From positions 1-64,000 of the IMG/VR virus record IMGVR_UViG_3300047552_001097: a DNA stretch of 64,000 nt, one strand, 5' to 3'. How positions within the stretch are numbered: the first letter of the stretch is position 1; each line of letters starts with the position of its first letter. This document shows positions 6,213-56,095 of this stretch, in pieces. Made by a program: the position numbers and the translations under genes. Origin of the DNA: a virus. The notes under the pieces were generated by a model, which saw nothing but the letters and a program-made list of their open reading frames with translations, had not been told where the DNA came from and did no database searches.

Positions 6213-6363
6213 TATTACTTATATACAACTAGTTATATCTATATTTAATAGAGAGGGGGACTTATTAGATTGTATAAGTGAGTATTTACCTAACTCTATA
6301 TCTGTAATAAGAAGTAAGGTAAAGGTGGTTTATAAGATGATAGAGAAGCTAGAACTAGACTAA
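6115..6363 (+). CDS. Hypothetical protein, up to 82 aa, start uncertain
   Basis: The part beyond the upstream gene (about residues 33-82) has normal composition (DITYIQLVISIFNREGDLLD, then a basic helical end), so this end is probably coding. The ATG at 6115 forces a 98-bp overlap with the 123-aa gene, and later ATG codons at 6136 and 6151 are alternatives. The 3' end overlaps the stop of the giant - strand gene by 9 bp. The function is unknown. Confidence 0.45.
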   Translation: MIILYQLMSNHLMIYSCLTQQPIELDSLKIPNDITYIQLVISIFNREGDLLDCISEYLPNSISVIRSKVKVVYKMIEKLELD

Positions 6364-21300: not shown

Positions 21301-22473
21301 CATATTAGGTAGATAGTTAGCTATAGTGTTATTTATATTACCTGGTGATGTAAGAGTCTCTACATCATTAACTCCTAGGGATATAAGTTTCTCTTTAACA
21401 ATATCCTTTTGAACTCTATAAATCCTTTCCATAATAATAATATTAGGGCCAAGGATTTGATGACCCACCATATTAGCATTACTTCCATTAGAGGGGGCAG
21501 CTAGTCTAATACTAAACTTAAAGTCTCCAGAGGCTATTCTACTAGATTCCCTCTGTAGTTTAGATACTAGTACATCAGATATAGTCTTATTCTGAAGTTG
21601 AAATAGGTCTATAGTTAGTTCTTTATCGGCACTTTCTATAAAAGCAATAGCCATTCTCACACCGGGTTTATATACATAATCACTCTTATCTAGTAACCTA
21701 GTGGAGAAATCTTTGACATAAGAAGTAGATGTAGTAAACCCATAATCCATCCTTTTTAATAGAATCTCTGGATCTGTTCTTATTAATTCATCATGTATCT
21801 TGTTAACTCTATTAGTAACTTGATACTCTTCTCCAGTTAATAAGTGATTTAAAACCCATCTTCCCTTAGCCATTCCATCTAAATCATTAATATTAGGATT
21901 CTCTTTTAGTATCTTAAGACCCCCATATATGTTCTTATTAACTTCATTACTAACTACTTCAGTAGTGTCATGGTCAAATAAATATCTATATGCAACACTG
22001 GAAGTATACCTTTCATACTCTATTCGGCGCTTATCCTTTTCCTTCTCAGATAGAGTTGACTCAAAGAAACCATCATTTAATCCAATATTAAACTCTCCAG
22101 TTATACGATTAATGGCCTTTATCCCACTAGTTGATAGGTTGTATAAATCACTTGAAAAGGCAGAGAATGCGTTTCTAGCTAGAGCTCTAGCTGCTTCTTC
22201 ATATACATCTACCTTATCCTGTAGAATATCCTGTTTAACAACTTGTTTTATATAATCCCTTCTTTGAACCTCTTCCTTCTCTGTGTAATAACCCCTATAG
22301 TTCTTACTAGAACTTACTCCAAAATCCTGATTATATTTATCATCATATTGTTCATTAAAAAGGAAATGGGTATTAATAGTATCTTTTAAATGGTCTCTTA
22401 TTCCTTTCTCATAGAAAGAACCACTTAATATTCTATTATCTGTAGGGTTATTACTCCAATTAGGATAGTGCAT
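6355..22473 (-). CDS. Giant 5,372-aa protein: PLD-like enzyme, coiled coil, candidate single-chain RNA polymerase
   Basis: One uninterrupted frame covers a quarter of the window. Residues about 265-800 carry two phospholipase D/nuclease half-sites: HPK at 402-404 with GSFN at 415-418 and later acidic residues, then HVK at 745-747 with GSSN at 770-773. Residues about 2960-4020 are almost continuous coiled coil rich in E, K, L, I and S. At 4173-4177 lies DFDGD in the context NIGDFDGDPY, preceded by GFRSPPIGG. This resembles the catalytic loop and upstream R-x-P element of RNA polymerase beta-prime/YonO/crAss-like enzymes. A possible beta-like basic element, GFKTRHSG, is at 2610-2617. Hydrophobic stretches occur near 5090-5130, 5170-5190 and 5250-5275. 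I infer a virion protein ejected into the host. A tape measure is the alternative, because the tail assembly chaperone gene is next door. Existence of the gene is certain; the polymerase role is moderately supported. Confidence 0.93.
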   Translation of the reverse strand: MHYPNWSNNPTDNRILSGSFYEKGIRDHLKDTINTHFLFNEQYDDKYNQDFGVSSSKNYRGYYTEKEEVQRRDYIKQVVKQDILQDKVDVYEEAARALARNAFSAFSSDLYNLSTSGIKAINRITGEFNIGLNDGFFESTLSEKEKDKRRIEYERYTSSVAYRYLFDHDTTEVVSNEVNKNIYGGLKILKENPNINDLDGMAKGRWVLNHLLTGEEYQVTNRVNKIHDELIRTDPEILLKRMDYGFTTSTSYVKDFSTRLLDKSDYVYKPGVRMAIAFIESADKELTIDLFQLQNKTISDVLVSKLQRESSRIASGDFKFSIRLAAPSNGSNANMVGHQILGPNIIIMERIYRVQKDIVKEKLISLGVNDVETLTSPGNINNTIANYLPNMNLEFIDSGSYHPKLYTTEKFAMLGSFNLTSPVGNSPSVAGSNYEEVIILHNRLDRINPNSSSYYIPDMDGVKRTALDIRSSFSSSMTKEKKQEYIDTHLYLQARMIALNEIKTRRAVTGNQIGNAGDIGQGLRTMIKYASSKSTYDKPIELYANLNQVWLLQLDDDIYYGKKGDYSGEFGPSGKSRTIPIETFLIRNKGNNRDSIYRSEIQYKFFELVNKGRAYVSVDIRNYRDKVLEPTIEKVSYLLGRMENTSLDYESTVRLGSKVFEDRYSSSLRTLTNAVNRDSKALINLLGLDKGGVNYGVSIDKFIDPRDKLSRFYNKVSSESSYRTALQILAITSGNIIEVTETMSHVKNIFAIQRYRGEDDSFKHIGAIQGSSNFGSSSLAFDVGDDTTSGEVGIINLARDMRRYGEREGTLYRSKDSMSEEMEDFKASEGQHLEREWFRLTRTKVGNVDSSLSSSKASWTNKVDRASLNTLIARLEALNKEMGLGKGEGISIKKSYGQHGELISIQVDINAGSLISGHKAGVTYNNSSFRVTALKGGLNNKSGFIYLIDQNKLVGKSLFINNQEETINLPYGKDSFTRRDDGSYSLQYKPLKSRESLLLTPIETFSNVISSLAGEMTYRALITQPLHYMRSLSKKENVQGNSMLGKAGLDYLEYLTYGRVSRYNGIAGDFLRSSSLSDIEITNLITKFEQRHGIGISGSFKASLNLRGGEDIVSQLKSSSLMSYQLVDNSNDLDIRTRVIKGLQAIRTINRALKDSNLSESNKRQLLFSKEAVIESIREGFDLSMGIGDIHTFQSDIALGIIESRREFMYDDSFINAIKLVKAGLLEPFITQKQVSTYTDNQAEFKTPLYGINRSQRVFLSNLKKRGDGISNIFRFAIAQPYIFGPSDTTGKGTEGAIRGVAEGGSISESIEEGGLSIHGIKKTPIGDIALVEFAKYGGVGYVTKRDEFDRYIFESIYNEYKVALYNEEIHSIEAMVNRLNEYRNRRKGGKSTFESSLIQKIDSKYERIIDGSGFKYSDEIVTYTYNVAKKVSQVPQRMKNKLGTRGMYEIDKEISYALLTKGNVNNIIEKRSLNIKVQVVETLFNRLNTTNSGIDTNTKKVLDNLKIVVQEDNIGLYSFNRLIEIAIDRTKGLNNQSKQTILHKLNHLYLKAESYLGEDLSIGIINASGFRGVMTSELASIVEQAKEELKEDFGFKEEDFEYRRGDISLARFMLLYRARSADSLASGTKGFTGTTEGLNPVILVQLTGDFSDYAYANPLYGGSNDDIKELHSLIKQYKGYKNIPLNERVEVMSKIRTMSGFIEKAEKKQKSSKLSEDWVSNGKLLARKGDIITFDTDTNRVLVWGNSSELISETTSGVKQSIELINQSKDVLSTLKQAVLGTEFNKYYSLDRESGHYVLKSMVDSRDQVAFLNGVIDNFRTIDDLPNVSRLDRQTWHRNAANSIEYLVSSKQLTGNADNNQLIWEMVYNRSFILEGGRRVEGIGTLAKAVLKFTSTDFLDIKDSRYQNMDFFSYLAAQFNKTQDGYTKVDVGSIFGLFNPTNLKSHFYSHGSHIVRNEQLLRSLISEFNPNTISNKKGNKLLLSLALAFGNEWMDSDVKKDINTILFESSIKGEMGSFFRNQALGTVISHLNGSSELVGAITGLGDFDTAINAIFNDSDPNYHKYQDIRTKFGSMFGNALVSKTKGLFNTQQTPSLALLDSQMLLKAAKGEQEGINYITSWLERKLVSDLGEGKGLVGREFIRIDNPFEREASILAGSLDLIAQLSKYDNDGITIPTEIDFNNNEIIKQIASIMGDVDLNKLERGSLLEKRSLTSLDKEEKESLDYLNAVRAMVRGFTTQSTVIRLFTDLLASESKESIGSKSTGALEYQHLLKPLMQVSSSFQEQGSISSLRTIVANMLSVVSDSATLHSVSGDIRDRDWIDKKVYDISDIRLGSQLHKSKFLGIYAGVDARTTAYLNQYKKDYESYGALVNNVVNILIKELDSNNLTPESRIDTIEKINQLMTYNPSENEAIRGIIVDMKDKMGSGFDITGALTLLDNISSRRLLDISRYYQLHSDKPFGAGSVSPILDQLNYKSFAFSLPQIYMSEDSSNDIGGKVRLELDYSQKYYSYLMSGAELKGLGDAYGSYIDEIVSRTIFLASAFAPGTAMSNVRDKIVRAKEEGTGVIELDKEELILLKKFYSYAFGDQGIVNLMAEASAGTRAQAAIGFKTRHSGAVTSSAASWLIPNGSILLAKEALNRYTSASPERYELVSLLENIGNSSSSYKEQNVIRAALLAVRGGLSPLGMSYIDEVLTIKKEVDSLIGKLGSINQEDTAVIEPLNRQANSLLSRLELLSNIQIGKNQGDSLAVELAKLEAERIKRSGLVEGDIEENKAYKRDKTKFNKWKRLSEGSKVYKEGIFLIELEVLEDEINRIKTNKGIVYEKTTKPFLNNEYRYNIPSEFLYKMTLDINNRVSGPAGMDLNIFFSIFQSNLVDYSIFPSIQEDLYYNLPEEVLKLVNEASSIFKERLSKANQLELGNIRRVLQVATGVDSIPVSVLFSEYYKRVQSHIEAYAPTFREINRELRDLNELQRINSSGNDPDSLSRKINQINSLPSLINKREELSSILNSFKALEKSGSFDISSSLDYLNSYLVDIESQVESLNKQRLELLSLKRASEGIDKTLINERIKELNSERTRLTKIVEEGKSLSKIVPDNKTVKRIASFIRGIYSSNLSDVNKEIHYIERTIEEIDSSDSIIYRLKLQESKVKGMRPTRDNLSKLEYELDLIKNSKDIDLEDGYIKSKVKILELERDRISSLIGISEELNSIRDDKNRLIKLREEQINLIEQIQKAKEEGKSGTIMVRPNNEDLLIHGNNLQQIEDRIRKVEQELYIKRANITLEQNSLVGRELFPDIKPSDSTSIVLRKELDKSRNEYSNNSISDLENELNRLNRARTSIQQSIDSTSKSVYLDDYGSRYNSLESKQLELSELEMKYRNATIEFLSSPEAKKRDEEIRERDIKKLESIQQELEEEHKYVNRTISELEGETWLGTTKRLIYQYSREIESRLKYINKIKSSIKIYDRSALETPPWMGLNPSSNGYRILEEDISSYKSRLEILSKIKRNIHLGIHSTEYINKIDKEYTEVKNKLNHLYKVKEYKQDSSRLLLEERELENRLYFLKIAPYEEIADSEWADLTEYKAKLERKQLALTQEISEYESPLELQIKKLDGEIEHLSTRINSIEGLSSLDRYSPVITYLMSREKELKSKYDEINGKAIKEIQSRLGEVDTKSSIQGLSKSISKYKEIIIREEKAASLFLRDIGIDKSIEKREFTRLIESLEINRANIRSEIQEFKKQIHPGNSIEYHSELNQLRELEESITLSINKLIEVRKTTLLEQRSSIISQHRSLKDKVLNIGKEIKLFKEAIRNIFTTYQADTKNQLDELKKRKQELVISQLKLENPSLSEGELETLYKDIDSIKVPKWFGKDKEGNAIEEHQKYIEANENITYEPIKMKLAYIQYRFENIIPQSNQRFKEEYSSIYQHLEGTKDKPGLLQTIESLEGTYKKTKSFSFDEHKYLGGISDIKEKAIVIETALGEYIKSSSSVSQEFSRRARDTFKNSESQIDMLNKNKQGLDDLSSGLAILRKIVKTQSINDTSLKALERIFKSIDPDINIYSLLNINPKLAVTESRVVKGQVVNKYKLTLNESLLSNSIALMEKMMNHLDMRDSIEVLGFRSPPIGGSEQQRMALTVIQDISLLNQAIGQDSMVQYDEERNKGLSLLSPISLLTMNIGDFDGDPYTTIFSQFMDLQRSIESDSIMIKTTEARIRALDTSIDNKVGGLGPLSSYEDRLALEEGIKEEKTRVHILKSEIEEHKVRIANNKAKLYTWRNQLESSSFSKAVKKEVANYLGIRVEHFLGGPEGFQQNDISMNVALTFIEQGRGLFGGLGGTGSSIKKVNSILKDVFINTETTVLSKQQTGIPTTGNNGPNMSLFSYLASVSNAHSGFHLLQDRLKVLAQDETNANRNTYLGILLMGEEAQKDLLDLMYKSIQSIAPNSTSISKEQEEEILARASGLYAARLKSVSSLQSILGQGAGVNMSLTGYDMMVKIMGKAGGDVLGKTYNTFVGTLYQESPLLALSSIIQEESTKQFLRDNDFYNSQGIKEEDFVSSIKRNSDTGEGILAFIKSINQLLRDGIKPKAGGDFIANMERLSSEYESLSDNPDKQRALITREAGKFGPSGSNVGMDVFMQLGSLVRNRETLSEDGRVKLMNGVIVSSFWGGATSTKNEQILASDLSIDNTQYERLVQELNTFGNKEEISAFDIGALKVKRDLESLVIAYRYNITTGASGYDKGEQSSFLDTIFSGYIGIISRELGKDRDQVNGEDIQDFINKRFNSDTAEGSRNLHILSRIFNKNEEDIKSNYLNLDTNKGGAREVLSMLEIINTTTEFTDKMMGKYGEGLSRFTDMEGARQKTISLMGGNSSNTELLGADIWDTMLNLAGSNKLSSHAIPAVWDTFASNEFLKTNFKGNIPLLMTGIKKENGKIVDTFAYKLANMPEEEAKKDFQSRLALFNAIESGSSMEYKDENGNTINTTLEKYLSNKLETTASMAKGRALNEFLTKMYGKKEEIDSYVEGESFIKALLGENHGLSITEIEQIERQYNKATSEYRQHKLASLRTKVDTGSSNAYAQSLTPNFNNLSQAVQFNNINNFMELALPLALTTIGSAVINGTINPDAIGNIVGGTIFSIAYGKKGTSIDPKAMLTKSMIGGSFKLNMALSETDGDLGEAIGLAAAREIGFTLGASVVAPFVEKSAINSMMSLSHLSSYKAQMYREAKLSQLSSNEKLRYLFNSNKGALDYDAMGGKRIAAQSITSAVLSGLFGMVGAGIAGSMMQPITDNQSEFTIIERAIEAIDEQLISEAYSTEQDTNDPDIYSEDGGFIQWEEMVRVSESIFEGDYISNEFSVPEGLFAMVSNNSVVELTIDNSEYEDLV

Positions 22474-33251: not shown

Positions 33252-33982
33252 ATTCTTATCCAATAACTACAGCAGTACCTTCCTTACCTTTCTTATGTAG
33301 ATATATATTCAGACTATTATCTACACATCCCCTAATAATAAATCCACCTATATATCACCCTGTAACAGGAGAAAGAGTTTATATAAAGGGATATAAGTTA
33401 TTTAATGGTATAGAGACTAATCTAGGTTTATATTGTTCTATATTTCCTCACTCTACTCCTACTGATGGTATAAGTCTACCTAAACCAGCAGATACATCTA
33501 CTTCTGTTCTATTTGAGCCCCAAGGTAATGGGTATGATTTAGCAGTATACCATATAGCTCTTAAACTTCACTATAATTTTTCTATATTAGGTAATAAGGA
33601 GACTAATAATGACCTTATAGCTGTACCCTTAGATGCTGCTATACACCCATCTCAGACTCCATATGCTAGAGAGGGGTCTAGAGAGTTAGAACTATACTAC
33701 AGTCCAAGTCTATACATTATTGGTGAGTATTTAGAGTTAATACGATTAGCTATTTTAGATAAAGAACATACATTTTCTATGCCATCTGTTTTTAGAACAT
33801 CAGATATACCAAGAAATATACAGGTTCTTTATTTTAATTTAAAGACTCCACCTTGGGAGAAGGATAAGGCTTTATATTTCCATGAAGGAGAAATACTTAT
33901 TCGTATTGATTCAATCCTATCTAAAGAATGGAAGAGTCAATTTGAAGTTCCCACTGCTTCCTTCCAAGTCTCCGTTTTATAA
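33245..33982 (+). CDS. Tail terminator/neck candidate, 245 aa
   Basis: This beta-rich protein lies immediately before the sheath gene, where contractile phages usually encode the tail terminator (gp15-like) or a neck protein. Features are YHIALKLHYNFSI (a likely strand pair near 105-117), PSLYIIGEYLELIRLAI and a C-terminal SILSKEWKSQFEVPTASFQV. No family is recognised with confidence. Coupled to the upstream gene by overlap. Confidence 0.55.
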   Translation: MLDSYPITTAVPSLPFLCRYIFRLLSTHPLIINPPIYHPVTGERVYIKGYKLFNGIETNLGLYCSIFPHSTPTDGISLPKPADTSTSVLFEPQGNGYDLAVYHIALKLHYNFSILGNKETNNDLIAVPLDAAIHPSQTPYAREGSRELELYYSPSLYIIGEYLELIRLAILDKEHTFSMPSVFRTSDIPRNIQVLYFNLKTPPWEKDKALYFHEGEILIRIDSILSKEWKSQFEVPTASFQVSVL

Positions 33983-34001
33983 TCTTTATTTAATATTATT
34001 T

Positions 34002-36983
34002 ATGTCCATTCCATATATTAAATTCCATGAAGTAAATGATAGTACCTCACCTATATCTCCTAATGCTAGAAATAGAATTCTTATAGCTGGAGAGTTCTCT
34101 AGAGGACCAGCTAATGAGGTAAGGTTTATAGCTAACTATAAGGACTTCTCTGATAGATATGGTTCTGATAATGCTATAGGTTCAACAGCCTTCCAAGCTG
34201 CATGGGACCAAGGGGCTAGAGACTTTGCTCTATTAAGAGTTCTAGGAGCAGGTTCTCCAGCTAAGGGTTATATAGACTTTAATGGTTATGCCTCTAAGTC
34301 TAATGATATGGTTCTAGCTATGAGATTTATAGGGGACCCTGTTATTAGAAGTCTTAGAAAGATACCTACCTCTATTACTACAACTGGTAACTATGTAGGC
34401 TCTGTCTCTGGTAGATACTGGTTTAGAGTTGATGAGAAAGATGATAAAGGTTATTACAATGTAAAATACGTATTTGTACCTATTGGGATAGAGGGTTATA
34501 TAAACTGGTATCCACAGAGTAGAACAGACAAGAATTGGAGTGTAGACCCAACCTTTCCCTTTTCAACTATAGGTGCAGCTTTAATTCAAGAGACATCTAA
34601 TCTATCCTCTATATCATCTTCTCTTCTACAGTTAGTAGGAGCTGAGCCTATAGTGTTCTCTAACACTTGCTTAGATTTAGTACAACCAGGAATGACTTGT
34701 GGACAGGCTCAGGTTAATGGTTGGAAAGTTGTTATTGAAGTAGGGGATATGAGGTGGATATGGCATACTGATAGTGCAGGAGCTACTAAGTTACTAGATA
34801 AGAATAACTCTGGATATACAGGTAATATCCCTGTTATAGTTCCAGGTACTAATGGTGTTGCTTCCTTTAACACTATGGATGGAGTCACCCTAACCTCTAC
34901 CCAAACAGGACAGGATATACCTGCCTCTGGTCTATTTGCTAATTCTACTACTGCTGGAGCTATTAACCCATATATCATTCCAGTTACTGAATCCTTTATA
35001 TTCCATGAAGAGGATACTGGGGCTCCTATATCTGTGGATAATGGGGTGTTTGTTAGATTTGATAATGCTTCTACACAACAGTCTATTCAATTAATGAATG
35101 GGGATATGTGGACTGTTAGAGTTAACTTTGATAAGTTTGATATTCCTATTTATGATGGAGCAACCCCATCTCAAGTTGTTACTTCCATAATGGAGGTTAC
35201 TCAAGGTAGAGAGCCTATTGGGTTAGTAGAGAGAAATGAACTAGATAATGGTCTTATATTTGGTTTAGATGAGACTTTCTTTAATGGTTCTATAGGTAAT
35301 AACTATTCATATTATGTAGAACTAGCTGAACCAGATGGAGAGGTAATCACCCAAGCCTCCTTCTATAGTGGTGAGTTATATATTCAAGTTCCTATCAGAT
35401 ATGGCATATATATCAAACCAGGGGCTGTTGTTTCTTTAGTAGAGAGTGGGGGTATCTATGGGGTAGTTAATGTCTCTAACCCTTTTGACCCTAATGCTAA
35501 TAAACCTATTAGTAGAAACATCCTTAGTCCTAATACTAGAGTTACTAAGGTAGATGCTCCTATCTATGGTGGGGGTCTAGCTACTATATGGTTAGATAAA
35601 CCCGTGATATCAGACTTTGATAGTATAGGTCTATTCCATTTTGCTAATCCTAATGGTCTATCTATCTCTACCTATACTAGCTATATGGCTAAGTTTATGC
35701 AAGGTGGACAGAATGGTCCTACTAGAGCTTCTAGAGACTTATATACAATGGAGGGACTTCCCCTTGTATCTCTATTTGCTATATCAGAGGGAGCGTGGGG
35801 TAATAACTTAAGAATCTCTTTATATCCCTTTGATAACAAGTCTTTTAGATTAATGATAGTAGACCTTAATAAGAATAACTTTGACCCTCCTTTAGCAGAT
35901 GAGATGTTTAATGTCTCATTCGATAGGATAGATGAGCAGGGTGGACTTATAGACCTTTCTACATCTAAGTTTATAAGAGGGGTATTTCTACCTAAGTATA
36001 TTAACAGAAACTTTAATGTTTCATTATTAAGAAAGAGTCCTATGAGGTTAGCTGCACCTGATGATACAGCTACTGACCCTTCAGACTTTGCACATCCTGA
36101 GATGTTTGGTCCTAGAGTTCTATCTACTATTACTCTTGAAGGAGGCTTTGATGGTCCCCCACCTACTGATGCTGACTATATAAGAGCTATAGATTTATCT
36201 AAATCTAGTCCTGTTAATATGCTAGTTCTACCAGGTATATATAGTCCTGTAGTTAAACAAAGGATGATAGCTGCTGCTAATGGTGCTGATGAGTTTGAAG
36301 GTCTACGTATAGCTATACTTAATGCTCCTCCTAGATTAACTCCAGAAGCAGCTAGAGTAGAATCTATAGGTTATGACTCTAAGAGAGCAGTTCTATTAGC
36401 TGGATGGTCTACTTATGGTGGAGCTCTTAATGCTCAGAGATATGGCCTATCTCCAGATGCTCCCTATGCTGGGAAATTAGCTTCTATACCTATTTATGTA
36501 GGACCCCATGCTCGTTCTAGTAGTGGACCTGTATTTGGATTAGCTGAGGTAGATACTCAACCATACACTTCTAAAGCTCAATTAGAGATGTACCATGATG
36601 CAAGGATGGAGGTTATTATGTTAGACCCCATATCCCTATCCTTTAACTTCCTTAATGGTAGAACTACTAGTATGCTAGCTGCATGGGAGAAGGTCTCTTT
36701 TACTAGAGTAGTAGATATGATTCGTATGGACCTAGCTAGAAGTCTTAATCAATATAAGAGTGAACCTAACACTCCTAGATTAAGACAGAGGATAGCTTCT
36801 TCTATTGATGCTTATCTAGGAACTCTATTTAGAAATGGGGTTATAGCTCTATCTACTACAGCTAGTGTTAATGCTAATCCTCAGAATCCAGCAGGTATAC
36901 AAATTAGCTTCTCTGTCGTACCTGTGTACTCAGCGGATTATATAGATGTTTATATTAGTAGAGCTGATTTAGGAGTTTCATAA
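34002..36983 (+). CDS. Tail sheath protein
   Basis: The contractile sheath subunit, unusually large at about 993 aa (T4 gp18 has 659). The open frame reaches upstream to 33882, but this would overlap the previous gene by 101 bp. The ATG at 34002 (MSIPYIKFHEVND) matches the normal sheath N-terminus. Typical elements are RILIAGEFSRGP with YKDFSDRYG, and a C-terminal domain with YKSEPNTPRLRQRIASSIDAY, YLGTLFRNGVIAL and PVYSADYIDVYISR. The insert of roughly residues 150-560 is probably surface domains decorating the sheath. Confidence 0.9.
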   Translation: MSIPYIKFHEVNDSTSPISPNARNRILIAGEFSRGPANEVRFIANYKDFSDRYGSDNAIGSTAFQAAWDQGARDFALLRVLGAGSPAKGYIDFNGYASKSNDMVLAMRFIGDPVIRSLRKIPTSITTTGNYVGSVSGRYWFRVDEKDDKGYYNVKYVFVPIGIEGYINWYPQSRTDKNWSVDPTFPFSTIGAALIQETSNLSSISSSLLQLVGAEPIVFSNTCLDLVQPGMTCGQAQVNGWKVVIEVGDMRWIWHTDSAGATKLLDKNNSGYTGNIPVIVPGTNGVASFNTMDGVTLTSTQTGQDIPASGLFANSTTAGAINPYIIPVTESFIFHEEDTGAPISVDNGVFVRFDNASTQQSIQLMNGDMWTVRVNFDKFDIPIYDGATPSQVVTSIMEVTQGREPIGLVERNELDNGLIFGLDETFFNGSIGNNYSYYVELAEPDGEVITQASFYSGELYIQVPIRYGIYIKPGAVVSLVESGGIYGVVNVSNPFDPNANKPISRNILSPNTRVTKVDAPIYGGGLATIWLDKPVISDFDSIGLFHFANPNGLSISTYTSYMAKFMQGGQNGPTRASRDLYTMEGLPLVSLFAISEGAWGNNLRISLYPFDNKSFRLMIVDLNKNNFDPPLADEMFNVSFDRIDEQGGLIDLSTSKFIRGVFLPKYINRNFNVSLLRKSPMRLAAPDDTATDPSDFAHPEMFGPRVLSTITLEGGFDGPPPTDADYIRAIDLSKSSPVNMLVLPGIYSPVVKQRMIAAANGADEFEGLRIAILNAPPRLTPEAARVESIGYDSKRAVLLAGWSTYGGALNAQRYGLSPDAPYAGKLASIPIYVGPHARSSSGPVFGLAEVDTQPYTSKAQLEMYHDARMEVIMLDPISLSFNFLNGRTTSMLAAWEKVSFTRVVDMIRMDLARSLNQYKSEPNTPRLRQRIASSIDAYLGTLFRNGVIALSTTASVNANPQNPAGIQISFSVVPVYSADYIDVYISRADLGVS

Positions 36984-37896: not shown

Positions 37897-39903
37897 ATGA
37901 AACAATATAATCCAAATTGTTCAGTACCTGCTGCTGCCATTACATATGCTGGTGGGTTAACAGGTAATCAACCTATACTCTTTACCACTCAATACGGGCA
38001 TGTAGATACAGGAGTTGGTCCTAGTGGTACAAAGGAGGATAAGTATGCAGATAGACCCCTAGAATGGGCTATTAACTATATAAAGGTTACTATAGTAAGG
38101 GACTGGAGTAGTTCTATAGCTAATATCATGTTAACTTCTAGTATCCCCTCTAACCTATGTGATTGTCCTCCATTACCTAATCTATCTAAGATAAGAGGTG
38201 GTAACTACCCTTATCTAACAGTAGAGGATGAAATACGTATATACATGGGTTTTATAGGGGCAGTAGGTCAACCTATAACGGCTGATATGTTAGATGAGAT
38301 ACCAGTAGACCTATGTCCAGAGGGAGTGGAATGTGGGATACCTAGTGGTGAATCCTTTAAGCAAGACCCTAATAAACCCTTATGTCCTGTATTCTGGGGC
38401 TTTATAGATAACATCTCAGTATCCGCTGATATTAAGTCTGGATATAGAGTTCTTATTCAATGTAGAGATAGAACCAGGGTCTTTAGTGATACTAAGATAA
38501 TCTCTATCCCAGCTCTCTCAGGTAGAAGTAGAAACCTAACAGATAAAGGGGTTAAGACAGGTTTAGCTGATGGTAGAAGAGAGGACATTCTTATACAAGT
38601 AGCTAGAGCTGCTACTGGTAGACTATTTGACTCTACTGGTAATGTTCTATATCAATCTACTAGTAAGGATGGTAAATCAGATACATGTTGGAAACCTGTA
38701 ATAGGGGGTTCTGATTTATTAGAGGAGAATAAGTATCAGCCAGGGTGGGGGGAGTCAGGAGTTCAGTACAAGCCTTCAGAGTTAGGGGTTATGAGGTATA
38801 CAGGGTTTGAGGGGGATGTAGTAAGTGGGTTAACTAGAGTATCTCCACCAGAGGACCCAGCTTTATGGATAAGAGAGGCTATGTTTAAGATTATGCTTCC
38901 TTATTCAGAGCCTAGGTTCCATATGTGGGTACAGAGACCTCCCTTAGTAGCAGTGGCAGGAGCTGCTGTATTTCAGATAAAGGAAAAAACCCCCATAGAA
39001 GTAATGACCTTTCTAGCTAATTCAGAGGAGAGACCTACTGACTTCTATGCTTCTCATGTTAATGGGGATTTTATATTTGCACCTAGGATGTTAGATACTA
39101 GTGGATTCTATGACCCTAATAGATTCTATAGAACCTATTTCTATAATAGTTACCCCAGGACTTTATCTAGTAATCCCCCCTCCCCTAATCAGATGATAAT
39201 AAGCATGAGGTCTGTAACTTCATCTCTAGCAGCCTTTAATAGATATGTTCTTATAGATGCTACTACAGAAGGAGCTTCTAATGCTTTCCTAGATAAGCTA
39301 GTTCTATCAATGGAAACTACCCCTTGGTCTTTAGATGATAGAGATGTTAAACCTCCTTGTAGAGTTCAGATTATCTATGATGGTAATTTAACAGCTTATG
39401 GTAATGAGGACTATCAACAAGCGGGTGCAGCTATTACTGTAGCTCTATCTCATGCTAGAACTTGGTCTAAGGAGTTACAGGGTATACAAATAACTATAAT
39501 GGGAGACCCCACTCTATATCCTAATGAAGCTATAAGAGTTTATAATACAGTTCTCCATGATTATGCTACTAGCTTTAATCCTGGTACAGTAGAGAGTCAA
39601 CAAGTAGCTGTAGATAATTTAGCTAGAGTAGAGAGCTTGTTTAATGATGAGGAGTTTGTTAAGAAGGTTATGACTCTTTCCTCTAATAAGAAATATAAAC
39701 TAGATAACTTTGATAGTCAACAGGCTAAGACCTTAAAGGATGAGGCTAATGCCCTTTTTAATAGTCATATGATTCAATCTAATAAAGACCCAGATAACCT
39801 TATTCTACCTGTCTATAAGATAAGGTCTGTACAACATACTCTATCAGTAACAGGTAACTCCCCAGGCTTCTTTACTAAATTAGAATGTATAGGGGATTAT
39901 TGA
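37897..39903 (+). CDS. Baseplate hub protein (gpD/gp27-like)
   Basis: This 668-aa protein has the hub fold signature: EDEIRIYMGFIGAVG around residues 110-124 and FWGFIDNISVSADIKSGYRV near 167-186, continuing LIQCRDRTRVFS, as in late-control gpD and T4 gp27-like proteins. The C-terminal part includes VQIIYDGNLTAYGNEDYQQA and GIQITIMGDPTLYPNEAIRV, which look like the second barrel. The trimeric hub joins the tube to the spike. The next gene encodes the spike, which supports the call. Confidence 0.75.
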   Translation: MKQYNPNCSVPAAAITYAGGLTGNQPILFTTQYGHVDTGVGPSGTKEDKYADRPLEWAINYIKVTIVRDWSSSIANIMLTSSIPSNLCDCPPLPNLSKIRGGNYPYLTVEDEIRIYMGFIGAVGQPITADMLDEIPVDLCPEGVECGIPSGESFKQDPNKPLCPVFWGFIDNISVSADIKSGYRVLIQCRDRTRVFSDTKIISIPALSGRSRNLTDKGVKTGLADGRREDILIQVARAATGRLFDSTGNVLYQSTSKDGKSDTCWKPVIGGSDLLEENKYQPGWGESGVQYKPSELGVMRYTGFEGDVVSGLTRVSPPEDPALWIREAMFKIMLPYSEPRFHMWVQRPPLVAVAGAAVFQIKEKTPIEVMTFLANSEERPTDFYASHVNGDFIFAPRMLDTSGFYDPNRFYRTYFYNSYPRTLSSNPPSPNQMIISMRSVTSSLAAFNRYVLIDATTEGASNAFLDKLVLSMETTPWSLDDRDVKPPCRVQIIYDGNLTAYGNEDYQQAGAAITVALSHARTWSKELQGIQITIMGDPTLYPNEAIRVYNTVLHDYATSFNPGTVESQQVAVDNLARVESLFNDEEFVKKVMTLSSNKKYKLDNFDSQQAKTLKDEANALFNSHMIQSNKDPDNLILPVYKIRSVQHTLSVTGNSPGFFTKLECIGDY

Positions 39904-39935: not shown

Positions 39936-42572
39936 ATGTATAACGATGATGGAGAGTTAGGAAGAAGAAGGCAGTATAACAATAGGATGGAGAGTTCTAC
40001 TAAAGCTGTAAGGGGTAACTTTGAGATTCTATATGGGAAGATAGTGGGACTTATAGGCGCTGAGAGTTATGAACATAAAGGGTTTAACTATCAAGTAGAG
40101 CTTATAGATACAGGACAGTATATTTTATGTAGAAGGTTACTACCCTATGCTTCATATGAGGGAGTAGGAGTTTATCATCCAATGGAGGTAGGAGACCCTG
40201 TAGTAGTAGCTGTTAAGAATGGGGTTATGAGAGATGGGTTGATACTAGGCTCTTTTTTTACAGAAGGTAACTACGAAGAGTTCTATGTAGATGGATTAGG
40301 TGGAGAACCCACTCAATATAATCAGGGGACTCTAAGACAGATGGAGAATAATGCTCCTAGTGTTCATCCTAATAGAGTGGCTCAGCCAGACTCCTTCTTT
40401 CATATAGTAGGGGGAAAGAATGTATTAGAGGCATTCCATGACCCCTCTCTTACTGATGGAAGTATAGATAAAAGGGCTCTTAAAAGGAATCAACCTGTAT
40501 CCATAGAACTAAAGAATAGATTAGGAGACTGGTCTCAATGGGTTTCTGGGGATGCTATTATCTACTCAGACCAGGCTATTATTCTTGCTTCTAGTATGAG
40601 TGGAGCTTCTATTTGTAAGAAGCAAAAGGAGATGGTAGAGTATTATGAACAAATGGCTAAGGACTTAGAATCCTATCTATCCGATAGTAGGTCCTATTCC
40701 CCTATTGATTTATCTCAGGGGGTAACAGGTTTAATATCTGTTACTACAGAGGGGAATATTCCTTTAACAAGTGAGTTAGATGAGGATAAGAGGGTAAAGA
40801 TTAATAAATCAAAGGAGCATAGGTTAAGAAGATATATAAATGGGTATGAGAATCCAGACTTTCTACAATGGGCCCCTTTTATTGAATATCATTTAGTAGA
40901 GATAAAGAGGTTAGCAGAGGAGGCTAGAAAGGGGTTAACTAATTGTAAGGAGAGTGAGTATTTAGTTAATAGAGAAACAGAGGTTAGTAAAGAAATAAAT
41001 AAAGAACTACCCTCTAATGACCAATGTCAGGTTCTATCAGATAATGGTGCAATAGATGATAAGTATATAGAGTCATTAGCTGAGCATTCTATATGTAAGA
41101 AAGGGAATACTAAACACTATCCTTATGTAAAGTGGAAGGCTAATAAAGAAGACTTAGTTAAGTTAGATAGTCTAGCTATTAAGGGTAAAGAAGAAAGGTT
41201 AATTCATAAGGATATAGTTACTCCTTTAAAAGAACTCTTTGATAAAGCTAAGAAAGTTGGTATTAATCTAGCAGCTACTTCTAGTTATAGAGATGAAGAT
41301 ACTTTAGAAGATTCAAATAAAAGAACTTGTACAGACCTTGATGAGACCTCTATCAAATCAGTTGCCCCTTATACTCATAGTGAGCATATAACTGGTTATG
41401 CTCTGGATATTGTAGATAGAGATGATGCAAGTACCCATTCCTTAGATAGTAAGGTAAATAGTAAAGCCTGGGAGTGGTTAGGTAAGAACTTAAAGGATTC
41501 GGACTTTGAGTTGTCATTCCCTAAAGATAATAAACAGGGAGTAAACTATGAACCTTGGCATATTAGATATATAGGAGATAAGCTCCCTAAGTTCTTAGCA
41601 GTAATGTTTGCCTATACAAGGGGTAACACTGATTTAATTAAGGAGTTAGTAGGTAAGTTATGTAAAGATAGACCCCCAGAGTCTAACTCTAATACTAATA
41701 AAGGGAAAGATAGAAGTGATTTAGATATTGATTTACTTATAGATAAGGTCACTAAGGCTAATCCTACTCTAGTCTCTGATAAGACTGGGATTCATTCTTT
41801 TGGAGTAATAGGTAAAAAGACTTTTTTATCTAAGAAAGCTAAAGAGAGTATAGGTCCAGCATCTATTATTAAGTTGAATATAGCTCTAGCCTTTGATAGT
41901 TTGATGAAAGGAACTCCTTTAACTCAATTAAAAAGAAAGTTTGATATAAGTAAATTTCCCATTGAGGTTATAGCTGAGGGAGACTCTTTTAATGGTAGGT
42001 CTGTATTCCTTTTAGAGAATCTAGTAGAAGCTATGTTAAAAGATAGTTCTAATACTGCAACTAATATTCTTTTTCTTTTATTAGGGGAAAGAGATGATGG
42101 TAGGGGTAACTCTGTATTTAATAGAGATAAGTCTAATGAAACTCTAAAGGGAACTAGTCCTTCTACTGAGTTTAATAGGTTATTATCTTCTACTAGTGAA
42201 GCCGAAAAAGCTAAGGATACTACCAATAAATCTACAACGGAGGATGCCCTTAATGCTATGTATAAACTAGCTATATCTAATGTTCCATTAACTAAGGAGA
42301 TTAGTATTCCCGCATTAGGGGAAGCCGAGAGACCTTCTGGATTACAGAAAGTAGAGCTTAATAAGATAGGTTGGAATAGTTATGCTAGTGGTAATGTTTG
42401 TTTATATAAAGGTAAGAAAGGAAGGTTTGTTATAGGTGGATTTACTAACTATGACCCATCTAAAGAAACAGACTATGACTTAAAACTATTAACTCAGGCT
42501 TCTAATTTAGCTATTAAAGCTCTAGAAAGTGGTATTGAATATATAGAACAAATGGAGATAGAGGGATTTTAA
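39936..42572 (+). CDS. Hub spike protein with VanY carboxypeptidase and beta-lactamase-like domains
   Basis: Residues about 25-130 form a gp5/VgrG-like OB fold (FEILYGKIVGLIGAE, then VGDPVVVAVKNGVMRDGLIL). Residues about 400-560 are a VanY/M15B D,D-carboxypeptidase: SEHITGYALD gives H484 and D491, and EPWH gives H542, the usual zinc ligands. Residues about 590-870 resemble class A beta-lactamases and related D,D-peptidases: SIIK (S643, K646), SSN (704-706) and KIG (810-812) match SxxK, SDN and KTG. I did not find a clear E166 equivalent, so peptidoglycan binding or transpeptidase-like hydrolysis is more likely than antibiotic hydrolysis. The arrangement suggests a spike that clips cell-wall peptides. 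Confidence 0.82.
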   Translation: MYNDDGELGRRRQYNNRMESSTKAVRGNFEILYGKIVGLIGAESYEHKGFNYQVELIDTGQYILCRRLLPYASYEGVGVYHPMEVGDPVVVAVKNGVMRDGLILGSFFTEGNYEEFYVDGLGGEPTQYNQGTLRQMENNAPSVHPNRVAQPDSFFHIVGGKNVLEAFHDPSLTDGSIDKRALKRNQPVSIELKNRLGDWSQWVSGDAIIYSDQAIILASSMSGASICKKQKEMVEYYEQMAKDLESYLSDSRSYSPIDLSQGVTGLISVTTEGNIPLTSELDEDKRVKINKSKEHRLRRYINGYENPDFLQWAPFIEYHLVEIKRLAEEARKGLTNCKESEYLVNRETEVSKEINKELPSNDQCQVLSDNGAIDDKYIESLAEHSICKKGNTKHYPYVKWKANKEDLVKLDSLAIKGKEERLIHKDIVTPLKELFDKAKKVGINLAATSSYRDEDTLEDSNKRTCTDLDETSIKSVAPYTHSEHITGYALDIVDRDDASTHSLDSKVNSKAWEWLGKNLKDSDFELSFPKDNKQGVNYEPWHIRYIGDKLPKFLAVMFAYTRGNTDLIKELVGKLCKDRPPESNSNTNKGKDRSDLDIDLLIDKVTKANPTLVSDKTGIHSFGVIGKKTFLSKKAKESIGPASIIKLNIALAFDSLMKGTPLTQLKRKFDISKFPIEVIAEGDSFNGRSVFLLENLVEAMLKDSSNTATNILFLLLGERDDGRGNSVFNRDKSNETLKGTSPSTEFNRLLSSTSEAEKAKDTTNKSTTEDALNAMYKLAISNVPLTKEISIPALGEAERPSGLQKVELNKIGWNSYASGNVCLYKGKKGRFVIGGFTNYDPSKETDYDLKLLTQASNLAIKALESGIEYIEQMEIEGF

Positions 42573-42574
42573 TT

Positions 42575-43042
42575 ATGAAATATAAACTATTAGTTGTTAT
42601 ACATGAGTCTTTAATAACCTTTGAAGAAGTGTTAGAACTAGTGCAAAGTTCTAATATTCAGGGGACATATCATTCATTTATTAGAAGAGATGGAGAGATT
42701 ATTTATTTAGAGGAGTCTACTAAGAATGTAAATGCAGCTATGGAATCTTCTTTTAATGGAGAAGAAATACTAGGTTCAGTAGACCCCTTTGCTTATCATA
42801 TATGTCTAGAAAGTCCTATTAACTGTCCTATTAAAGCAAGAGAACATCTAGGATATACAGACCAACAGTATTACTCATTAGCCTGGTTGATAGCTAGTTT
42901 AAATCCAGAATCTAATAGGATAGTTAAACATAAGGATATAGACACTTCTGGAACTATTTATGATCCTAGGAGTTTAGATATTTTAAGGGTTAAGTCTGAT
43001 ATACCCAAGTTCCTAGCTCATGTTAAACCTATTACTATATAG
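42575..43042 (+). CDS. N-acetylmuramoyl-L-alanine amidase-like protein
   Basis: This has the layout of Amidase_2/T7-lysozyme enzymes at 155 aa: VVIHES (H10), YHSFIRRDGEIIYL, AYHICLES, QQYYSLAWLIASL and a C-terminal KHKDIDTSGTIYDPR (H119, D130). H10 and H119 are the likely zinc ligands, with D130 in place of the cysteine of T7 lysozyme. The enzyme would cut the bond between muramic acid and the stem peptide. It has no signal peptide and lies between spike and lysozyme genes, so it is probably virion-borne or tail-assembled rather than a plain endolysin. Confidence 0.75.
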   Translation: MKYKLLVVIHESLITFEEVLELVQSSNIQGTYHSFIRRDGEIIYLEESTKNVNAAMESSFNGEEILGSVDPFAYHICLESPINCPIKAREHLGYTDQQYYSLAWLIASLNPESNRIVKHKDIDTSGTIYDPRSLDILRVKSDIPKFLAHVKPITI

Positions 43043-43044
43043 AT

Positions 43045-44265
43045 ATGAATGTATTTGAAAAGTATAATGCTCTTAGAAGTAATAAATATGTAATAGCTGT
43101 ACTAAATCTAATATCTTATTATGAATCGGGAGGGTATGGTCATAAGGGATTAGAACAGTATCAAGTGTCATGGGGTGGAGTGTTAGTAGATTTAAAGGCT
43201 AATGCTCCTAAACACCCTTGGCCTGGGGGTGGATGTGCTGAGAGTACAGCTCTACCTAGAGCTGTAGGTAGATATCAATTCTGTGGATATGTATGGGATG
43301 AGATATTAACTTATCAGGGATTAGAGAATCTAGATTTTAGTAATCCAGTACACCAGGATGTAGCTGCTATAGCAAGAATGGATGTGTTTAGAAAGAAACT
43401 AGACTTAGTTCTAGAAGGTAAAATGCTAGAGGCTATTATAGGTACTGATGTAGAAGCAGATGGTCTATCTTGGGAATGGGCAGGTCTACCTCCTGGTAGG
43501 TATAGGGAGAATAGAAATGTACCAATAGAACCTGCTGAGAGAATGCTAGCTGAGTTCTTAACATCTAAGTTACCCTCTGATGGGGGTGATGGCACTTATA
43601 AAGGGGGAGGTTCCTCTAGTAATGGAACTAATACAAGTATTAGTTCGGATGGTTTATCTATTTCTACAGGTCCCTCTTCTATCCTAGGATTTAATATAGA
43701 AACAATAAGGAGTGAGCTATGTTATTCTATGAGATTCTGTAAGGTACTAGGAGGATTTGTTCCTACTAAAGCAGAAAGGATTCTAGGAGGCAATCCCTCT
43801 TTGAATGGTTCTTTAACAGTTTTTTCTCCAGGTTCTAATACTGGTTCTACTCCAGGGAAAATGGGTAAGTTTACTCCCAAAGAAGGTTTTATTAATCCTT
43901 GTCCTTCTATAGCTATGAATAGTCCTTTTGGTTGGAGATGGGGAAGAATGCACTGGGGTCTAGACTTTGCAGGGCCTATAGGTACAGATATAATGGCTTC
44001 TGCTGATGGTGTGGTGGATGAAGCTGGATGGAATGATGGGGGTTATGGTAATTGGGTTATTATTGTTCATCAAGATAGTCCTAGAACTGAGACTCTGTAT
44101 GGTCATATGGACACTACGCCTTTTGTTAAAAAGGGAGACAAGGTTAAACAAGGTCAGGTTATAGGACCTATGGGTACTACTGGGTTTAGTACAGGACCTC
44201 ATCTTCATTTTGAAATAAAACTAAATGGTGAGAAAGTAGACCCAGCCCCTCTTATTGGTTTATAG
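43045..44265 (+). CDS. Lysozyme-M23 endopeptidase fusion
   Basis: Residues 1-180 look like a lysozyme: LISYYESGG with the likely catalytic E27, and AVGRYQF (73-79). A Ser/Gly linker follows. Residues about 280-406 are a complete M23 (lysostaphin-type) peptidase: H303-x3-D307, a central GYGNWVIIVH, YGHMD with H354, and GPHLHFE with H386 and H388. The enzyme would cut both glycan chains and cross-links. Within the tail gene set and without a signal peptide it is probably a tail lysin. Starts 2 bp after the amidase stop. Confidence 0.88.
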   Translation: MNVFEKYNALRSNKYVIAVLNLISYYESGGYGHKGLEQYQVSWGGVLVDLKANAPKHPWPGGGCAESTALPRAVGRYQFCGYVWDEILTYQGLENLDFSNPVHQDVAAIARMDVFRKKLDLVLEGKMLEAIIGTDVEADGLSWEWAGLPPGRYRENRNVPIEPAERMLAEFLTSKLPSDGGDGTYKGGGSSSNGTNTSISSDGLSISTGPSSILGFNIETIRSELCYSMRFCKVLGGFVPTKAERILGGNPSLNGSLTVFSPGSNTGSTPGKMGKFTPKEGFINPCPSIAMNSPFGWRWGRMHWGLDFAGPIGTDIMASADGVVDEAGWNDGGYGNWVIIVHQDSPRTETLYGHMDTTPFVKKGDKVKQGQVIGPMGTTGFSTGPHLHFEIKLNGEKVDPAPLIGL

Positions 44266-50364: not shown

Positions 50365-51420
50365 ATGATACCTAAGACTACAGAACAGATTATTCAATTA
50401 TTTAGAAAGGAGTTATCTACCTCTGGCTCTGAACTAGCTAACTTCTATAGATATAGTAATCTTCATTTAATATATAGGTCTATAGCCTCTATACTCTCAG
50501 AACAGGATACAGATATAAAGATAACAAAGGATACAGGGTTTATATCTACTAGTACCGGAGAGGATTTAGATTATATAGGTAGAGACTTTAGTGTTTATAG
50601 AGATGAAGGTAATAAGGCTAGAGGATATGTACTAGCATCCAACTCTTCTCTAATAGAGATACCTCCTGGCACTATATTAAACATTGCTTCTCAGGCTCTT
50701 CAATATGAGACCTTAGAAAGAAGGGTTCTATCAAATAACATACCTCAGAGTATACCTATAGTTTCTCTATCTAGTTCCTCTCTATATAACATTAGTGCTG
50801 GTACTGTTTTATATAACTCTATATTCCCCTCTACTTCCTTTATAGTAGGTAGATATTCCACTAATGGTAGATATTATCCAGACTTAGTAGGAGGCTCTGA
50901 TTTAGAAGAGGATGACTCCTTTAGAGATAGGATTCTAAGAAAGATTGTAGGTACAGAGTTTGGTACTTATGGAGCTATATATGATGCTGTTAAATCCCTA
51001 CCATTTATTAGCCAGGTAATAATAAAGGATTCCCTTCCTGTACCTGGCTATTTTACAGTATATATAGATACAGCAGATACTGTAAATATAAATACAGTTA
51101 GAAGACTTGTTAATAATATTAAACCTATAGGAGTGGGATTTGTTATTAGACCTATTCTCTATACAAGTTTCTCTATAGTAGCTAGAGTAAGGGTTAATAG
51201 AATAGAGGAGGGGGTTCTTAATAATATAAAGACTAGAATAAGGGATTTAACTACAAATCTAAGGGTAGATGAACATTTATCTAGGGATTCTATTCTTGCA
51301 TCTATTATGAGAGTTAATGGAGTTATATCTGTATCTTTAACCTCCCCTTCTGGAGATTTAATACCAGCCTCTCAACAGGTGGTATCTATAGATAATATCC
51401 AAATAGATTTATATGAATAA
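50365..51420 (+). CDS. Baseplate J-like protein (gp6-like wedge)
   Basis: This has the baseplate J pattern at 351 aa: EIPPGTILNIASQALQYETL, GGSDLEEDDSFRDRIL (around 178-193), GTYGAIYDAVKSLPFISQVI and a repeat-like beta C-terminus. J/gp6 proteins form the baseplate ring that holds the wedge together. Starts 6 bp after the gp25-like gene in an AAATATG context, with the gpI-position gene following. Confidence 0.85.
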   Translation: MIPKTTEQIIQLFRKELSTSGSELANFYRYSNLHLIYRSIASILSEQDTDIKITKDTGFISTSTGEDLDYIGRDFSVYRDEGNKARGYVLASNSSLIEIPPGTILNIASQALQYETLERRVLSNNIPQSIPIVSLSSSSLYNISAGTVLYNSIFPSTSFIVGRYSTNGRYYPDLVGGSDLEEDDSFRDRILRKIVGTEFGTYGAIYDAVKSLPFISQVIIKDSLPVPGYFTVYIDTADTVNINTVRRLVNNIKPIGVGFVIRPILYTSFSIVARVRVNRIEEGVLNNIKTRIRDLTTNLRVDEHLSRDSILASIMRVNGVISVSLTSPSGDLIPASQQVVSIDNIQIDLYE

Positions 51421-54988: not shown

Positions 54989-56095
54989 ATGTTTGATTTA
55001 ATAATTGTAGGGGCTGGACCTAGGGGTATAGGTTTAGCCCTTCAAGCTATAGAGAGAAGTTTATCTGTACTAATAATAGACCCAGAACCTTTATCTACTT
55101 GGAGGAATATCCCAATAGATATAAATATGAGAAGTCCTATAGGATTTGATTTAGTATCCTTTATGCCAGAGTATAGACAATATAGTTTATCAACTTATCT
55201 AGGTTCTTATCAAGAGTTTAATAATCAAGAGGATATAGAAAGGTCTACGAGTGTAGTAACTAGACAGCACTTTATTAACTATATGGAGTTTATGTGGAGT
55301 AGAGTTTTATCTATATGTAGTTATAAACAGGACAAGGTTATTAACATATGGCCTAATAAAGTTATGACTACTAAGGAAGTATATAGAGGTAAGAATGTGG
55401 TTATAGCCTATTCCCCTATTAAGGCTAAGAACCCTAATTGGTTGAATCTAGAGTTAAAGAGAAAGCTAGTTACTGCTAAGGATATAGATTCTATAAATAA
55501 CTCTCTTATCTGGGTTATAGGTAGTGGACAAAGTGCCGCAGAGTATGTTTATTCTTTATGTTCTAAAGGTAATACAGTCTATTGGTTTAATAAGAAAACT
55601 CCTAGAGTAGACCAGTACCCTGCGCCTAGTTATAATCATTGGGGTTATAAGAGTGCTCTAGGCCCTTACTATAGGAGTATTAAAGAGAATAAGGAGGCAG
55701 CTATGAGATATATGAAGGATATAAAGAGATGGCAACCATCTATTACTCCAGATATAGATACTAAGTTATCTACAGTTAAAGATAGATATAAGGTTATACT
55801 AGATAACCCCTCTTCTATAGAGGTAAATATGGATTATATTTTTCTATGTAATGGAGTTAACTCTAGTGTTGATTTAGTACCATTAGCCTTACCAGTAGAT
55901 AGACATATTTATAACAATGATTTACCTCTTTTACATACAGGATTTAGAAGCTCCTTATCTAACGAAAGGAGTGGAGGGAAGGGGGGTTATATCTTTACAG
56001 GGTTACTGGCTTCTTTATATGATGGACCTAGGCAAGGAAGTTTAATCTCTATAGGGTTAACATCTAAAGAGATATTAGATAATATTAATTTATAA
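54989..56095 (+). CDS. FAD/NAD(P)-dependent oxidoreductase
   Basis: Two dinucleotide-binding motifs are clear: GAGPRG at 8-13 for FAD, followed by an acidic strand end (VLIIDPEP), and GSGQSAAEY from G178 for NAD(P)H. The pattern DINMRSPIGFDL and TRQHFINYMEFMW is like flavin monooxygenases and the SidA/IucD/PvdA group. Near the end is LLHTGFRSSLSNERSGGKGG. The 368-aa length fits a stand-alone enzyme. It lies between two baseplate genes in the same operon, with no obvious horizontal-transfer signature. It could modify a host metabolite, a tail component, or be incorporated in the virion. Confidence 0.8.
   Translation: MFDLIIVGAGPRGIGLALQAIERSLSVLIIDPEPLSTWRNIPIDINMRSPIGFDLVSFMPEYRQYSLSTYLGSYQEFNNQEDIERSTSVVTRQHFINYMEFMWSRVLSICSYKQDKVINIWPNKVMTTKEVYRGKNVVIAYSPIKAKNPNWLNLELKRKLVTAKDIDSINNSLIWVIGSGQSAAEYVYSLCSKGNTVYWFNKKTPRVDQYPAPSYNHWGYKSALGPYYRSIKENKEAAMRYMKDIKRWQPSITPDIDTKLSTVKDRYKVILDNPSSIEVNMDYIFLCNGVNSSVDLVPLALPVDRHIYNNDLPLLHTGFRSSLSNERSGGKGGYIFTGLLASLYDGPRQGSLISIGLTSKEILDNINL

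Follow-up and report, generated by a model that had tools for sequence, protein, structure and literature searches.

Tail-tip wall enzymes usually number one or two per phage. In the Bacillus podovirus phi29, two activities, a lysozyme-type domain and an M23 DD-endopeptidase, are joined in a single tail-tip protein, gp13 (PDB 3csq; PMC9662197). The Anabaena myophage A-1(L), a cyanophage with a contractile tail, combines lysozyme, endoglucanase and peptidase domains in its baseplate hub gp15 (PDB 8kea); Anabaena cells are lysed by two of these, the endoglucanase and the peptidase, and the authors propose wall opening in entry; no activity of the lysozyme domain is reported in the text (PMC10966104). 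Mycobacteriophage Omega, a siphophage, carries a fibronectin-linked, beta-lactamase-like tail-tip domain in gp39, which was detected in virions by mass spectrometry (PMC3706429). Here we describe a locus of three adjacent genes in a 64,000-base stretch of viral DNA (the window; bases 1-64000 of the 171,917-base IMG/VR virus record IMGVR_UViG_3300047552_001097) that encodes five predicted peptidoglycan-acting domains, two of them fused to a putative baseplate spike.

The lysozyme domain of the A-1(L) hub is related to the GH104 domain encoded here (profile E 4e-13; structure Z 11.6), but all A-1(L) enzymes lie in one hub protein, in whose description VanY, PBP-A-like and amidase domains do not appear, whereas the window spreads its domains over a spike fusion and two further proteins. 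phi29 gp13 was also a structural match; here GH104 stands in place of its lysozyme, and there are three further domains. Omega gp39 has no fusion to a spike or to VanY. Multi-enzyme tail tips and beta-lactamase-like tail-tip domains are thus already known; new are the number and combination of five domains, the identification of one as PBP-A-like, a spike fused to VanY and PBP-A-like domains, and the swapping of such modules, slot by slot, among cyanophages.

Five wall-acting domains in three genes

The three genes lie on the plus strand with 2-base gaps (39936-42572, 42575-43042 and 43045-44265; 878, 155 and 406 residues) and encode, in order, VanY (M15), serine beta-lactamase-fold, Amidase_2, GH104 and M23 domains. 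An earlier note, made from the sequence, had proposed five such domains in three adjacent tail genes in this place and order, and Pfam calls above cut-off (VanY and Beta-lactamase2 in gene 1, Amidase_2 in gene 2, M23 in gene 3) together with profile matches confirmed it. Its range of 41140-44265 located the locus correctly but began inside gene 1, the true start of which, at 39936, precedes a baseplate-spike OB domain. Catalytic residues of all five domains are intact in the window, except for the amidase lysine. The arrangement is not a product of chance, because some 20 distinct relatives have most of these domains at the corresponding position.

Gene 1 matches a baseplate protein family (phrog_30576, E 1.5e-29). 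Its structure model was built from a 16-row alignment, and the OB and VanY parts are usable. An OB-fold domain of the gp5/VgrG spike type (residues 28-108; 40017-40259, plus strand) was recognized by Pfam Phage_base_V, below cut-off (E 8e-4), and by the model, in which residues 27-112 gave OB-fold structure matches (Z about 10) and residues 27-219 matched the spikes of P1 and of a Streptomyces injection system (CIS; Z 7.6-7.8). Gene 1 is probably the baseplate spike or a spike variant, in which an N-terminal helix, the OB fold and beta-strands are followed by two peptidase domains. The VanY domain (residues 422-548; 41199-41579, plus strand) scored 91 bits against a Pfam cut-off of 25 (E 6.8e-26), has the SxHxxGxAxD and ExxH motifs with H484, D491, E539 and H542, and matched BaLdcB in structure (Z 14). 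LdcB-type carboxypeptidases such as BaLdcB are its nearest counterparts. The HDEH residues were kept in all six distinct members.

The second peptidase domain of gene 1 (residues 626-840; 41811-42455, plus strand) had been labelled beta-lactamase-like, and is better described as a PBP-A-like DD-peptidase. Pfam Beta-lactamase2 covers residues 631-780 (E 2.1e-6; 27.7 bits against a cut-off of 22), and the three active-site motifs are present as SIIK (S643xxK646), SSN (S704xN706) and KIG (K810xG812). The top profile match was Thermosynechococcus PBP-A (PDB 2j7v; E 8.5e-13), ahead of any true class A enzyme (2.6e-9), and cyanobacterial homologues scored 39-70 bits, compared with 24-26 for TEM-1 and a staphylococcal-family enzyme. 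Alignment with TEM-1 showed that the motif of the deacylating Glu166 in the omega loop (ExxLN) is missing from the phage sequences and likewise from the related cyanobacterial proteins; SxxK, SxN and KxG are shared by the phage domain and PBP-A. PBP-A has both DD-carboxypeptidase and DD-endopeptidase activity, prefers stem peptides amidated on D-isoglutamate (D-iGlu), and its family has been reported from cyanobacteria only (PMC11189452). The phage domain is probably a DD-carboxy-/endopeptidase of this type, and therefore would also act on the cross-link. PBP-A itself is a cellular enzyme; in the tree, the phage domains formed one separate clade (95/91) on long branches beside two divergent cyanobacterial proteins, and direct descent from a host PBP-A is not shown by it. 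Screening viral contigs with a profile of the beta-lactamase-fold domain revealed no further phage group.

Gene 2 (42575-43042, plus strand) is an Amidase_2 protein of 155 residues (Pfam E 1.8e-7, above cut-off) with zinc ligands H10, H119 and D130, as well as Y32; the three ligands were kept in most distinct members.

Gene 3 (43045-44265, plus strand) encodes a GH104 domain, a disordered linker and an M23 domain in its 406 residues. Pfam made no call on the N-terminal domain (residues 6-150; 43060-43494), which the earlier note had called a lysozyme; a nine-member profile matched lambda lysozyme (PDB 3d3d/1am7) at E 6e-21, which places it in the lambda R (GH104) family, and in a one-sequence search a related GH104 profile matched lambda R at E 3.5e-26. 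Members of this family are lytic transglycosylases, as opposed to hydrolytic lysozymes. The position of the lambda catalytic residue Glu19 is occupied by Glu27 in the window and by Glu in 9 of 13 distinct GH104 members. The M23 endopeptidase domain (residues 291-400; 43915-44244) was called with E 7.5e-34 and a structure match of Z 22, and carries H303, D307, H354, H386 and H388; this HDHHH set, comprising the HxxxD and HxH ligands and the catalytic His, was kept in 25 of 25 domains. M23 proteins dominated the Foldseek and VIA matches to gene 3, among which the A-1(L) hub also appeared; lambda lysozyme was not among the structure matches listed. All five domains named in the earlier note are thus borne out, two of them under new labels.

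A fixed slot with exchangeable content

A profile of the putative hub encoded upstream of these genes retrieved 41 viral loci, most of them outside named genomes, whose open reading frames were scanned with iterated domain profiles; labels such as L010, L013 and L015 denote these related phage loci. An arrangement of hub, spike, amidase and glycosidase-M23 recurred across diverse contigs of the Ma-LMM01 type. The Microcystis phages Ma-LMM01 (gp094-095) and MaMV-DC (ORF95-96) have the same hub-spike locus with GH104-M23, and LMM01-type phages lack the amidase there. The Microcoleus phage My-WqHQDG has a spike fused to a beta-lactamase fold, an amidase and two M23 genes. None of these three combines VanY with a PBP-A-like domain, and tblastn found no VanY plus beta-lactamase fold behind such a spike in deposited phage records, a negative of little weight, as distant domains escape BLAST.

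VanY was present in the window, L010/L011, L012, L013, L018 (behind M23) and L022, and the beta-lactamase fold in the window, L010/L011, L012, L013, L003, L021 and L029. On the hub tree, the minimum number of changes was 3 for VanY, 4 for the beta-lactamase fold, 5 for GH104 and 1 for the amidase. The glycosidase preceding M23 was GH104 in many loci, GH24 in L015, GH108 in L018 and GH19 in L027, while further loci have a domain there without an assigned family. The amidase was fused to the spike in L015, L025, L026 and L038. One comparison is between L013 and L015, whose sheaths are 89% and hubs 86% identical, yet whose wall-enzyme cassettes differ: L013 (10885-15494) has a spike-VanY-beta-lactamase-fold fusion, a separate amidase and an M23 preceded by a domain of unassigned family, and L015 (9730-12586) has a spike-amidase fusion and GH24-M23. 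We read this difference as a recent cassette exchange at a fixed place. The slot in the locus is fixed and its content is swapped between phages.

Identity among members was 22-32% for the beta-lactamase-fold domain and 30-42% for GH104. Despite this divergence most catalytic residues were kept in relatives, although exceptions exist; the earlier note had named the loss of most of them as evidence that would count against it.

Several loci showed further peculiarities. Each of L025 (9489-11322) and L026 (9501-11279) has its hub gene broken into two open reading frames. Two amidase domains, one spike-fused and one free, adjoin the GH19-M23 gene in L027 (12972-15197), and L012 (15788-17212) and L003 (11925-14552) each have two like-built M23 genes side by side, as if duplicated.

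Tail genes and host

The tail context proposed by the earlier note was borne out by the neighbouring genes as well as by the baseplate family of the gene 1 N-terminus. Upstream of the wall-enzyme genes lie a tail sheath (33882-36983, plus strand; Pfam Phage_sheath_1C, E 2.4e-8), a tube and a putative baseplate hub of 668 residues (37897-39903, plus strand), a marker gene of LMM01-type phages whose hub role is assigned from position only and which had no match among PDB sequences; downstream lies a baseplate wedge (50365-51420, plus strand; phrog_6, E 1.5e-34). Sheath, tube and putative hub are homologous to those of Ma-LMM01-like cyanophages and follow the same gene order, identifying the genome, by sequence, as that of an Ma-LMM01-type phage. 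Among 50,697 phage records, hub relatives were confined to Microcystis phages of the LMM01/MaMV group and My-WqHQDG, and the hub is also encoded in one cyanobacterial assembly, Elainella saxicola. These relatives and a gene for NblA, a phycobilisome degradation protein (30.7 bits against a Pfam cut-off of 25), make a cyanobacterial host very likely. The NblA protein (170814-171146, minus strand, of the 171,917-base genome) has 110 residues with the domain at the N terminus, longer than usual; no psbA was found in the genome. The LMM01-type tail locus within the Elainella saxicola assembly (contig LUGL01000101) could belong to a prophage, an infecting phage or a contaminant.

Elsewhere, the genome encodes another M23 protein (139921-140577, minus strand), which has a hydrophobic stretch at its N terminus and is possibly a membrane-anchored lysis enzyme. 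No RNA families were found around the wall-enzyme genes, and a promoter and terminator scan was uninformative, with matches below shuffle expectation. Two giant open reading frames occupy window positions 6355-22473 (minus strand; 5372 residues) and genome positions 82793-95965 (plus strand; 4390 residues). A gene of the baseplate cluster (window 54989-56095) belongs to a PHROG of unknown function and starts with a nucleotide-binding-like GxGPRG motif.

Proposed role and alternatives

We consider it likely that the three genes encode virion-associated wall enzymes of a cyanophage baseplate that open the wall during entry. We infer the enzymes' place in the virion, the time at which they act, the bonds they cut and the cooperation of the five domains. 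After tail contraction, the spike would cross the outer membrane, and spike and hub would bring the enzymes into the periplasm. There, GH104 could cut glycan strands, the amidase could release the stem peptides, D-Ala-diaminopimelate cross-links could be opened by M23 and by the PBP-A-like domain, and the VanY and PBP-A-like domains could loosen or trim stem-peptide ends, their combined cutting producing a local gap through which tube and DNA would pass. The spike-amidase fusions of relatives fit a virion role.

Among Gram-negative cells, cyanobacteria have peptidoglycan of unusual thickness and with a high degree of cross-linking (PMC7766704; PMC5928242), and a large toolkit fits such a wall. 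The earlier note went further in holding that the full set implies a thick or modified host wall. This was too strong: the toolkit by itself implies no special wall, because LMM01-type Microcystis phages carry only GH104-M23 at this locus, and the inference is weakened further by the gain and loss of VanY and the beta-lactamase fold between close relatives.

Several observations weigh against the preferred reading. Carboxypeptidases by themselves leave the mesh unopened. Gene 2 has I128, two residues before the third zinc ligand, in place of the catalytic lysine of AmpD and T7 lysozyme, which is missing in nearly all members; amidase activity is accordingly likely but not assured. In the LMM01 members of GH104, Gln stands where lambda has Glu19, and a Glu follows two residues further; as this Glu lies in an EGAD motif, we do not claim loss of the catalytic residue. 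The S-K-S-N-K-G set of the beta-lactamase fold is complete in 4 of 7 distinct members and broken in L010 (K to Q), L003 (no KxG) and L029 (no K of SxxK, N of SxN or K of KxG). The PBP-A-like part of the gene 1 structure model failed, with a predicted local distance difference test score mostly of 25-60, so that the fold of this domain is assigned from sequence. Finally, the same M23 gene is named a lysis gene in MaMV-DH01 (PMC9927357).

That annotation bears on an alternative in which only gene 1 is structural and genes 2 and 3 are endolysins that merely sit beside baseplate genes. Amidase, GH104 and M23 domains all occur commonly in endolysins, and the rest of the genome yielded no clear holin or classical endolysin. 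We nevertheless regard this explanation as unlikely, given that the genes come after hub and spike in distinct relatives with a complete region, that the amidase is part of the spike in four loci, that a separate membrane-anchored M23 gene exists, and that the homologous A-1(L) domain belongs to a virion hub. A different division of labour, in which VanY and the PBP-A-like domain mainly bind, docking the spike to stem peptides as a determinant of host range with catalysis secondary or lost, would accommodate their frequent gain and loss (at least 3 changes for VanY and at least 4 for the beta-lactamase fold), the loss of active-site residues in some relatives and the discrimination by PBP-A between amidated and non-amidated stem peptides (PMC11189452). 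The window and most relatives, however, keep full catalytic sets at the low identity of the beta-lactamase-fold domain, which speaks against pure binding, since binding needs none; such a role for the two domains seems quite improbable.

Protection of phage or host from antibiotics by a true beta-lactamase is very improbable: the Pfam call over cut-off and the presence of SxxK, SxN and KxG would allow it, but the better score of PBP-A and the absent Glu166/ExxLN motif led us to reject a true class A enzyme, and the domain is fused to a baseplate spike.

Within the preferred reading, entry through enzymes carried on the baseplate, a more speculative idea, which we hold only tentatively and think doubtful, is that the locus is an exchangeable wall toolkit whose spike took up two stem-peptide peptidases, one near PBP-A, so that cutting is matched to host wall chemistry (for example, D-isoglutamine amidation) and cross-linking. 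If so, toolkit swaps between phages with near-identical tails would switch host range at the peptidoglycan layer instead of through a surface receptor.

Implications

One baseplate locus here encodes five predicted wall enzymes, including a PBP-A-like serine peptidase on the spike; the nearest case is a three-domain cyanophage hub. The analysis corrects the database labels beta-lactamase, endolysin and lysis gene for such proteins. The locus also forms a natural series: hub and M23 stay constant, while around them cutters come, go or give way to unrelated folds. With such a series one can ask which bonds need to be cut for DNA to enter through a cyanobacterial wall that is both thick and highly cross-linked, and whether the chemistry of the wall restricts host range.

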